From: Natronolimnobius sp. AArcel1
GTDB taxonomy: Archaea > Halobacteriota > Halobacteria > Halobacteriales > Natrialbaceae
Assembly (NCBI RefSeq): GCF_011043775.1
Contig: NZ_JAAKXY010000001.1
Location: 473,617-537,616 of the forward strand
DNA: 64,000 nt
Direction of reading: 5' to 3'
Made by a program: the position numbers and the translations under genes. The notes below the pieces were generated by a model. It did no database searches and was not told the DNA's origin. It saw only the letters and a list, made by a program, of their open reading frames with translations. Shown here one piece after another: positions 8,366 through 35,426 of this stretch. Numbering within the stretch: position 1 is the first letter of the stretch; each line of letters opens with the position of its first letter.

Positions 8366-8568
8366 ATGTATCACCGCGGGCTTTCCTGGTTCAATCCCGA
8401 TACTCGAGATCACATCCCGACCTGTGGGCGTCGCACCGAACAGGTGCCCGCTGGCGCCCGCGACCCAGCGAGTTGATAGGTTGTAGCCAGCGTTCCCGTA
8501 TAAGCGCTTCGAACCGAGAGACGACGATACAGCCGTGTTAACGGATGACGTGAAAAAGGAACACTTAG

Positions 8569-30338: not shown

Positions 30339-30412
30339 CCGCCCTTAGCTCAGACTGGTAGAGCAGTCGACTGTAGATCGACTTGCCCCCCGTTCAAATC
30401 GGGGAGGGCGGA
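30339..30412 (+). tRNA. tRNA-Tyr (anticodon GTA)
   Basis: A 74-nt cloverleaf. The acceptor stem CCGCCCT pairs with AGGGCGG, followed by discriminator A. The anticodon arm is GTCGA-CTGTAGA-TCGAC with anticodon GTA. The T arm contains GTTCAAATC between CCCC and GGGG. The C1-G72 pair is the archaeal tyrosine identity element. No intron is present. CCA is not encoded. Its 3' 21 bases are repeated 123 bp downstream. Confidence 0.97.
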
Positions 30413-30535
30413 CTTCTCCTGCGAACAACGTGAGCAGTGAGAAGTCTACCCCGAGCCGATTTGAACATGGAAGTCGCAGCGCGCGAACGAAGTGAGCGCG
30501 ACCGTCTTCCAGCTGTTCAAATCGGGGAGAGCGGA
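30392..30535. repeat. Duplicated tRNA-Tyr 3' end (attachment-site-like) with long hairpin
   Basis: The last 21 bases of tRNA-Tyr (30392-30412) recur at 30515-30535 with one change (GGGAGGGCGGA versus GGGAGAGCGGA). Between them, 30456-30473 pairs with 30506-30525 (12 bp plus 6 bp with a 2-nt bulge), using the repeat's own bases. A 5-bp GC hairpin (CGCGC/GCGCG) lies at its tip (30480-30500). Such tRNA 3' duplications mark integration by tyrosine recombinases. No integrase gene is near. Confidence 0.7.
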
Positions 30536-32242: not shown

Positions 32243-32524
32243 ATGCATCCCCTTGAGGTTGCACGTTGGCAAAAGACGTTGCCCAAATATGCACACGAGA
32301 CAACGAACCCCGTGTGCATATTGGTCGGTGGTCGGGCCGCCGATCTTTCGAGCTACTGTGACAGAGTGATAGGAATACTCCCATTTTGGGCTGAATGGAC
32401 TTTCAGTGAGTCGAGGAAACTAGAATTTGTGGATCGTGTGTACGAGCATGCGAATCCGAACCGACGGGACTATGCCTATATTCAAATCAGGCCAGCAGCC
32501 CGCAGTTTTCGTCGAAAAAAGTGA
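32243..32524 (+). CDS. Possible small protein of unknown function (doubtful)
   Basis: A 93-residue frame beginning MHPLEVARWQKTL. It contains a perfect 12-bp inverted repeat within its first third (32286-32322), which is unusual for coding DNA, and no family is known. It might be a real accessory gene or a frame covering an RNA hairpin. Listed with low confidence. Confidence 0.2.
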   Translation: MHPLEVARWQKTLPKYAHETTNPVCILVGGRAADLSSYCDRVIGILPFWAEWTFSESRKLEFVDRVYEHANPNRRDYAYIQIRPAARSFRRKK

Positions 32525-32531
32525 ACCCGTG

Positions 32532-32717
32532 TTACTCGAGATCGGAGCCAACCCCTGATGGGTCGGACGCCCGACTCGAGTCGGGGATGATTCGACAGCC
32601 ACAGGGATTGGCGTAGGCATCGCCGGGGCCGAGGACGACGGTCATCGCCATCGGGTTGCCACAGGCGGGGCAGGTTCCGAGGGCCGATGCGTCGTCGGAA
32701 TTGTCCCCGTCAGTCAT
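32532..32717 (-). CDS. Small CPxCG-type zinc-finger protein
   Basis: A 61-residue protein with a CPACG knuckle (about 16-20) and a second CGC motif (about 39-41), giving four Cys ligands for zinc. Haloarchaea encode many such CPxCG microproteins; their roles are mostly unknown, and some bind proteins or RNA. It is separated from its neighbours and oriented against the doubtful 32243 frame. Confidence 0.65.
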   Translation of the reverse strand: MTDGDNSDDASALGTCPACGNPMAMTVVLGPGDAYANPCGCRIIPDSSRASDPSGVGSDLE

Positions 32718-32853
32718 CGCCTCTGCCTAGTTGTGGAATGGCTGCGAGGCTCGAGGCGTTGTGTTCGCCCGTGATCGGCGACTGCGGTAGGTGGTGGTGT
32801 TGATGCGACTCGAGAGGGTGCTGGCGCTCGAGGTGTGCGATTCGACTGTCGTG

Positions 32854-32980
32854 CGGGATGTTTATATCCCGGTAGAATGAACGGAATCATGCTTGCAAAA
32901 CCCCTGGCGGGTTTTGGAAGCCGTCTCGGGTGCTGCTACACCCGGGGCATTTCATTCATGCCCGGTTTGGCTTCCGGTTG
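32854..32980 (+). ncRNA. Candidate structured small RNA with own TATA box
   Basis: A TATA element (TTTATAT, 32861-32867) lies inside a short palindrome CGGGAT...ATCCCG (32854-32871). Downstream is an 8-bp hairpin CAAAACCC/GGGTTTTG (32896-32916, loop CTGGC). A three-way junction follows: outer stem GGAAGCC/GGCTTCC (32916-32922 with 32969-32975), inner hairpins CGGGTG/CACCCG (32927-32944) and GGGCAT/ATGCCC (32945-32963). The first hairpin and the outer stem share base 32916, so both cannot close it. Expected start is about 32891. No open frame follows. It could be an sRNA or a long mRNA leader. Confidence 0.4.
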
Positions 32981-33457
32981 TATTATTGACGTGATGTGAC
33001 TTATATCTACTGTTGCTGGAGTGGAATAGATGTCTAATTGTGGAATTTAGGAAAGGTGTTAACGGAGATGGAACTCTGAGCATTGCCGTCGCTAGATATC
33101 ACGTGGTTACGCCTAGTCTACTAACGAAAGATCACTGCACCCACCAATTAATAGCCATTATACCAACACATATGATCTATGTATTACATGCTTATCTCAA
33201 ATACGTTTTCATGCAAATCAACAGGGAATCAAAATTGTATTTATTTACACTCATATTCGGGAGTGATAAATAATATATTTACACAATATCTGAGATAGAA
33301 TAGATTCGTTTCGAGGATAATGGTGTTCTTACTAAAACCCTCGTATCAGGATTTTCTGGCTAATGGGAACTGAGAGATCCCCCCAACCACACCGAACTCA
33401 TAAGTTGAGAATAGAGGCACAGTCAATCTCTAAAAGAGCAACAACCGTTAGATATTT
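32981..33457. other. AT-rich intergenic region before membrane-protein pair
   Basis: A 477-bp AT-rich stretch. One frame (33013-33273) is open for 86 codons but has no family match or ribosome-binding context, so it is left unannotated. The AT-rich composition continues into the following genes. It may hold the promoter of the 33458 gene. Confidence 0.35.
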
Positions 33458-34415: not shown

Positions 34416-35426
34416 ATGATCGACAACGCTCGAGCCCTTCGTCCCTCTCATATCCCCAGTGACCTCCACCACCGGGACGCCAAGATCGAGCAGTTAGCGG
34501 ACGCCTTGCGGCCAATCGCAGACGGAGACCGTGGCGAAAACGTGCTGGTGTTCGGCCCGAGCGGAACTGGCAAGACGACGCTCGCGAAGTTCGTCGTACA
34601 GGAACTCGAGCGTGAAACGCTGGATTTCCGCTGGGGATACCACAACTGTATTTCCGGGTCGTCTAAAGCGGCGGTTCTCTACGGCATCATGCGCGATGCG
34701 GGCCTTGGTGCGGATCTTCGTAAAGCGGGATCGCCAACGAGTGAATTTATCCACCGACTTCGAGAGAGTGACCGCCGCGTCGTCGCGATCATCGACGAGG
34801 TGGACGTCCTCGAGGATGATACCACACTACAGGCGCTGTATGAACTGCCGAACGTGACGATTGTCGCGATTACCATCGACGAAGACGACTTGTTCGCACA
34901 TATCGACAGCCGAGTGCGAAGTCGCCTGCGGAGCGCGGAGACGCTCCGCCTCGAGCGGTTTACGCACGCGCAGTTGGTTGATATCCTTCAGGCGCGCATC
35001 CGTGCCGGGCTTCGACCAGGGACGATCACCAGCGACGCGATCCACTACACCGCAGACGTCGCCGCGGGTGATGCACGAGAAGCGATTGGCATCCTCCGGA
35101 GCGCTGCACGCGCAGTCATGCGTGAGAACGACCGCTCGCAGATCACGACGGCCGTCGTCGACGACAACCGAACCGCTGCTCGCGAAGAGATTCATCTGGA
35201 TCGCGTCGAGGATTTGGGGACGCACAAGCGCCTACTGTACGATATTATCGAGGCAGCGGGCGAAGTTCCGGCGACTGAACTCCACGAGGCCTACGAGCAG
35301 CGAGCACAGACCCCGAAGGCAACGAGCACCCGCCGGCGGTATCTCTCGAATCTCGAGGACAAGTACGGGTTGATCGACTCGAGCGGAAACGGGAAGGGGA
35401 AAGCCTACGCCGTCCCCGAGTTTTGA
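34416..35426 (+). CDS. Orphan Orc1/Cdc6-family AAA+ ATPase
   Basis: A 336-residue AAA+ protein of the Orc1/Cdc6 type, shorter than most haloarchaeal Orc proteins. Walker A is GPSGTGKTT (about 45-53), Walker B VVAIIDEVDVL (about 122-132), with a sensor-1-like VAITID and a C-terminal winged helix (EVPATELHEAYEQR onward). Chromosomal Orc proteins bind origins. This one follows AT-rich accessory genes and is followed by iteron-like repeats, suggesting the replication initiator of an integrated element. It might also be an inert remnant. Confidence 0.75.
   Translation: MIDNARALRPSHIPSDLHHRDAKIEQLADALRPIADGDRGENVLVFGPSGTGKTTLAKFVVQELERETLDFRWGYHNCISGSSKAAVLYGIMRDAGLGADLRKAGSPTSEFIHRLRESDRRVVAIIDEVDVLEDDTTLQALYELPNVTIVAITIDEDDLFAHIDSRVRSRLRSAETLRLERFTHAQLVDILQARIRAGLRPGTITSDAIHYTADVAAGDAREAIGILRSAARAVMRENDRSQITTAVVDDNRTAAREEIHLDRVEDLGTHKRLLYDIIEAAGEVPATELHEAYEQRAQTPKATSTRRRYLSNLEDKYGLIDSSGNGKGKAYAVPEF

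Follow-up and report, generated by a model that had tools for sequence, protein, structure and literature searches.

Which RNA is made from the short segment at positions 32854-32980 of the window, from which strand is it read, and what might it control? The window is a 64,000-nucleotide stretch of contig NZ_JAAKXY010000001.1 of Natronolimnobius sp. AArcel1, and the initial annotation had proposed for this segment a regulated small RNA on the plus strand. Its palindrome CGGGATGTTTATATCCCG lies exactly at 32854-32871, where chance predicts 0.22 matches per window with up to 3 mismatches, and its 8-bp hairpin CAAAACCC/GGGTTTTG is present at 32896-32916. The palindrome, the TATA-like box and the stems are real, and only one strand had been read. 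The features of both strands, in window coordinates, are as follows.

32510-33034, unstranded: whole cassette, delimited by comparison with the copy L040 of a sister species
32532-32717, minus: zinc-finger microprotein of 61 aa (CPACG...PCGC), with no Pfam family above cut-off
32714-32890, minus: leader ORF of 58 aa (MIPFILPGYKHP...), starting at the edge of hairpin HP1; its TGA stop overlaps the zinc-finger ATG (ATGA)
32854-32871, plus: palindrome around the TATA-like box TTTATA, 22 nt before ATGG; predicted promoter of an antisense RNA
32889-32976, minus: putative structured mRNA leader, with helices P1, P3 and P2 in a three-way junction, then HP1 beside the leader-ORF AUG (MFE, z, covariation, G.U wobbles)
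32889-32980, plus: predicted antisense RNA over the minus-strand leader (the small RNA of the initial annotation), from box spacing
32896-32916, unstranded: HP1 hairpin (alignment, covariation, minus-strand MFE)
32916-32922, unstranded: P1 left arm GGAAGCC, common to an alternative helix with GCTT at 32891-32894
32927-32944, unstranded: P2 hairpin with the nearly invariant stem CGGGTG/CACCCG and the hypervariable loop CTGCTA at 32933-32938 (alignment, loop statistics)
32945-32963, unstranded: P3 hairpin GGGCAT/ATGCCC (alignment, covariation)
32969-32975, unstranded: P1 right arm GGCTTCC, 5' end of the minus-strand RNA (alignment, covariation)
32999-33012, minus: conserved 3' box CAGTAGATATAAGT, a BRE/TATA-like promoter of the leader mRNA when read on this strand (exact match, 0 in shuffles)

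Fold and strand of the conserved RNA

The plus strand contains the stems GGAAGCC/GGCTTCC, CGGGTG/CACCCG and GGGCAT/ATGCCC from which a three-way junction had been drawn, but its minimum free energy (MFE) fold differs, consisting of the 5' hairpin extended by GCTT/AAGC and a 10-bp hairpin 2 (z -3.3). Folded from its predicted start, the minus strand has the P1-P3-P2 three-way junction plus HP1 as its MFE structure. A 97-nt minus-strand stretch (32880-32976) gave a z of -4.6, yet the alternative helix there beats P1; in the minus-strand ensemble P1 stands at 0.66 versus 0.24 for the alternative helix.

The site is one of 6 copies of a ~525-bp cassette that BLAST identified in the AArcel1 genome, and BLAST copies occur in 21 of the 61 genomes searched, all of one family. 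A covariance model search in other haloarchaea recovered relatives in most Natrialbaceae, where genomes carry from 1 to at least 21 copies. Other families have weaker relatives, with up to 16 copies in Haladaptatus genomes; a few Natrialbaceae genomes yielded no copy in this search. The stems are not lost in these homologues and are kept with compensating changes. Across 42 sequences from several families, 23 of 28 pairs have changed on both sides and the covariation score is 0.282, compared with 0.096 when shuffled and ~0.06 when slid, figures that lean towards the model because the alignment was fitted to it. An independent MAFFT alignment of 63 copies contains 57 two-sided cells versus 24 when shuffled. 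Furthermore, three complementary segments change in concert across families (GGCTTC/GGAAGCC/GGCTTCC; GGTCTTC/GGAAGACC/GGTCTTCC; GGGTT/GGGAACCCC/GCGTTCCC). A search against Rfam 15 returned no family above its gathering cut-off and none at E<=5 or E<=1. The structured RNA is real, lies outside Rfam and is conserved with compensating changes.

The non-Watson-Crick pairs, counted with one representative per cluster, point to the strand. Read on the plus strand, they are A.C versus G.U at 72:14 in P1 and 46:7 in P3; mostly A.C there, they become G.U on the minus strand. The corresponding GU:AC ratios of 0.19 (P1) and 0.15 (P3) compare with 0.76 and 0.77 in a shuffled-region null and with 0.37 and 0.45 in a column-shuffle null. 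Wobbles in HP1 and in the palindrome are strand-neutral. An early count, made without clustering or a null, had suggested strand-neutral wobbles overall and was superseded by the clustered counts. Wobble asymmetry, folding and the relatives all favour the minus strand for the three-way junction.

Overlapping reading frames on the minus strand

The earlier statement that no protein frame follows is correct for the plus strand (ATG frames 36/24/22, stops in 24/82), where a protein-coding RNA was rejected for lack of a conserved frame, but it missed two overlapping ORFs on the minus strand. The stop of the leader ORF overlaps the start of the zinc-finger gene in 84 of 106 non-redundant copies, versus 12.9 expected with a shuffled ORF body, and the overlap is exactly ATGA in 56 of the 106 (1.8 expected). 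Over 3688 leader-ORF codons, frames 1 and 2 contain 113 and 126 stops and frame 0 contains 0, which is partly by construction since the leader ORF ends at its stop. The leader ORF of Natrialbaceae is variable in length (median 39 aa), and in other families the minus-strand ATG at the RNA edge opens the zinc-finger gene itself. As judged from sequence, an mRNA with two overlapping ORFs has this structured RNA as its leader, and the overlap is the strongest single result. The initial annotation's regulated RNA outside the standard families is in this sense retained as a structured RNA lacking an Rfam match, but its junction is better supported on the opposite strand, as the 5' leader of a zinc-finger mRNA.

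Of 191 copies, 123 have a CPxCG..PCGC protein encoded on the minus strand no more than 700 bp from their 5' side; as controls, the opposite strand gave 0 and the other side 3 and 2. Some Cys-rich protein occupies this position in 160/191 copies, and in Haladaptatus a SWIM zinc finger was found in 25/35. The zinc-finger protein combines an acidic N-terminus with a zinc-finger core of 4 Cys. Such proteins fall below every Pfam cut-off in the tables seen, and a structure model of modest confidence (pLDDT 72) has no significant match in the PDB. Poly-T after the zinc-finger stop was rejected as a general terminator (only 15/158). In the G035 copies L083-L092, the nearest upstream minus-strand gene encodes a HalOD1-like domain protein, and several of these end in a C-terminal CPxCG..PCGC zinc finger.

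The variable loop and a predicted antisense RNA

P2 combines its nearly invariant stem with a hypervariable loop of 6-7 nt. Among copies with 95-99% identical flanks, loop identity is 64% versus 48% for random loops, and 11% of these pairs have identical loops. Within genomes, 0 of 346 pairs share a loop (84 copies, 13 genomes); the between-genome identity rate of 0.66% predicts only 2.3, so that this zero does not reach significance by itself. At its two ends the loop mostly has T..G or C..A, with C..G or T..A in 0/234, and since these closing bases are never Watson-Crick the loop stays open. Reverse-complement pairs are enriched among distinct loops (14/69 vs 5.7; 8/17 vs 2.7). Loop inversion was rejected as a general source of variation, because reverse-complement loops are not enriched among close pairs. 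In plasmid antisense systems, loop-loop recognition goes with a conserved stem that carries a free, open and variable loop (PMC9458437, PMC10724649). The cassette likewise varies the candidate recognition loop and keeps the stem, as expected under antisense control.

Two TATA-like boxes flank the folded core, each at an ungapped, fixed offset from its own edge of it. On the minus strand, the box CAGTAGnTATAAG is located 24 nt beyond the P1 arm, a distance fixed in Natrialbaceae copies; on the plus strand, a TTTAT(A)-like box precedes ATGG by 22 nt with constant spacing. Given the usual archaeal box-to-start spacing, each predicted RNA would begin at one edge of the folded core, and the two would overlap completely. 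The start that the initial annotation placed near 32891 has a suitably spaced box in front of it and is itself a prediction. Similar plus-strand boxes were seen by eye in other families, inside the coding sequence of the opposite strand, and in L155 the box CTTAAG lies inside a GGGCC/GGCCC palindrome. The arms of the Natrialbaceae palindrome are kept by paired changes in most copies and lost in some. Conserved coding of the leader ORF was rejected as its cause, as the variation is not biased to third codon positions and paired nonsynonymous changes preserve the palindrome. The palindromic box would drive an antisense RNA over the leader, and the plus-strand RNA is most simply read as this antisense RNA and not as a free-standing, trans-acting small RNA. 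A downstream gene as its partner was rejected (orientation 50:50, no recurrent family).

We infer two transcripts, their kissing interaction, repression and a role of the zinc-finger protein. The minus-strand mRNA would start near 32976 and fold into the three-way junction and hairpin, with the leader ORF beginning at the hairpin edge (32890), and ribosomes completing this ORF would re-initiate at the overlapping zinc-finger start (ATGA, 32717). The palindromic TATA-like box on the plus strand would drive a ~90-nt antisense RNA that spans the leader together with the start codon of the leader ORF. Contact between the two RNAs would begin at their complementary P2 loops and lead to pairing, which would stop the leader ORF, and with it the zinc-finger protein, from being translated, and copy-to-copy loop differences would restrict each antisense RNA to its own leader. 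Sequence statistics support the structure, the strand of P1 and P3, covariation, linkage, ORF overlap, box spacing and loop variability. Several points weigh against this model. Instead of starting an antisense RNA, the plus-strand box in the palindrome could act on the minus strand or be a binding site for a regulator, and in Haladaptatus SWIM genes this box is weaker, only TTCAAG within coding sequence. HP1 wobbles are neutral, and folding of the plus strand alone does not favour the junction. With 2.3 identical pairs expected, the lack of shared loops within genomes is not significant by itself. Finally, loops differ even between likely orthologues, more than the mere avoidance of cross-talk would call for. 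On balance, we give about an even chance that a dispersed zinc-finger cassette is controlled from this site by an antisense RNA specific to each copy.

The main rival is a leader acting only in cis, since P1 and the helix abutting the leader-ORF AUG use one common arm. The minus-strand junction would then be autogenous or ligand-sensing, with a ligand or the zinc-finger protein stabilising one of the two competing folds and no functional antisense RNA. Both helices covary in Natrialbaceae, the wobbles favour the minus strand, the leader lies directly 5' of zinc-finger genes in several families, and haloarchaea are known to have autogenous leaders, the eL15 leader in the window being one example. 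However, the alternative helix is weak across families and reduced in GGCAAC-type copies, and neither the hypervariable loop nor the constantly spaced plus-strand TATA-like box in several families is explained; we consider this alternative less likely than antisense control.

A stand-alone regulated RNA on the plus strand, acting in trans on other mRNAs, with the zinc-finger gene as a divergent regulator binding the palindrome, would account for the TATA-like box and the paired palindrome changes, and the RNA would open with a stable hairpin. Multicopy sibling small RNAs exist in bacteria, a precedent for this reading. The structure does not appear to be selected on the plus strand, however, with P1 and P3 wobbles favouring the minus strand and HP1 neutral. 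Furthermore, the leader ORF overlaps the zinc-finger gene, conservation is lowest in the candidate seed loop, the loop complement is not enriched elsewhere in the locus, and the palindrome is missing in some copies; we regard such an RNA as improbable.

Dispersal of the cassette and comparison with known systems

Related copies are alike over about 525-640 bp and then diverge abruptly. Over 32510-33034 the window copy and L040, its closest relative in the sister species, are 91% identical, and their flanks on both sides are unrelated. Copies up to 96.5% identical occupy unrelated flanks inside one genome, and copies occur on plasmids as well as chromosomes. All this would suit a non-autonomous, MITE-like mobile element whose hairpins are DNA structures serving movement, but no terminal inverted repeats or target-site duplications were seen by eye at the ends of close copies, no copies were found in phage and viral collections, and the strand-asymmetric wobbles, stop/start overlap and fixed TATA-like spacing are features of expression, making this a very improbable sole explanation; mobility may hold in addition to an expression role.

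The cassette of the window lies between a tRNA-Tyr gene (30339-30413, plus) and an AAA ATPase ORF (34416-35426, plus) that is Orc1/Cdc6-like by eye, and the region may be a variable island. On the 3' side of the element in Haladaptatus L148-L180, an HTH gene followed by a PIN or Fic/Doc toxin-like gene is often present, divergent from the SWIM gene, and the palindromic repeats between the SWIM and HTH genes differ from copy to copy. Some Natrialbaceae copies lie near VapBC-like or DUF433/DUF5615-like genes. In L114 (3452-7800), four copies within 5 kb are interleaved with pairs that look by eye like DUF433 antitoxin/DUF5615 toxin. A link with toxin-antitoxin islands is possible.

More tentatively, copy-specific antisense control could extend to archaeal type I toxin-antitoxin-like (or selfish) cassettes. 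In these, a leader-ORF-coupled zinc-finger effector would be held off by a cis antisense RNA, and each copy would bear its own kissing-loop barcode, changing far more quickly than the sequence around it both inside a species and from one species to the next, so that a single genome could hold up to 20 or more orthogonal switches. If true, these cassettes would form a natural set of orthogonal RNA switches and make it possible to test what haloarchaeal zinc-finger microproteins do, and they would raise the question of why a 6-nt loop changes so fast. We know of no archaeal system in which a structured leader and a coupled leader ORF occur together with a loop-specific antisense RNA; leader/antisense systems of this kind are known from bacteria and their plasmids.

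The cassette shares a folded leader with an apical recognition loop with CopA/CopT tap-repA (IncF plasmid R1) and the RNAI-controlled rep mRNA of I-complex plasmids, and in both a complementary antisense RNA is made from the opposite strand, like the RNA predicted here. In tap-repA the leader ORF overlaps the controlled gene. The cassette has the same arrangement, with the leader-ORF stop overlapping the start of the downstream gene (84/106) and a folded leader with an apical loop selected on the mRNA strand. As proposed for the cassette, loop differences set specificity in both systems (for RNAI, PMC10724649): RNAI of I-complex plasmids inhibits rep translation via a kissing complex, and its top loop sets compatibility (PMC10724649). 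Unlike these systems, the cassette is archaeal, chromosomal as well as plasmid-borne, and present in many copies per genome; its antisense RNA is predicted, and its controlled product would be a ~60-aa zinc-finger protein and not a replication initiator. ColE1 RNAI/RNAII is likewise a sense/antisense pair with a conserved stem and a variable loop, in which loop changes create orthogonal pairs (PMC9458437), but it controls a replication primer rather than translation and has no leader ORF.

Among type I toxin-antitoxin systems, hok/mok/Sok also has a leader ORF (mok) with an antisense RNA over it; hok requires mok translation, which Sok blocks (PMC4147584, PMC3874152). The multicopy Ibs/Sib loci resemble the cassette in their several dispersed copies, with cognate-only recognition (PMC4147584). 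In contrast to both, the cassette is archaeal and its product hydrophilic and zinc-finger-like. The small, usually hydrophobic toxin of type I systems was not found in the cassette protein, given its acidic N-terminus and zinc-finger core; SymE is a non-hydrophobic exception among type I toxins (PMC4147584). The C(P)xCG micro-proteins of Haloferax volcanii are similarly small, with two C(P)xCG-like zinc knuckles (PMC11241148, PMC6562870), whereas the cassette protein is distinguished by its CPxCG..PCGC pattern with 4 Cys, its position below Pfam cut-offs and its multicopy, RNA-linked cassette. Archaeal leaders in Rfam such as eL15-Euryarchaeota (RF03144), found in the window at 8383-8444 (minus, 40.8 bits), also place a structured 5' leader with possible autogenous control before a small gene. 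The cassette differs from this leader in being multicopy, in lacking an Rfam match, in its leader ORF and hypervariable loop, and in a gene that does not encode a ribosomal protein. By analogy, the cassette is best read as a putative archaeal counterpart of CopA/CopT-tap-repA or Sok-mok-hok control.
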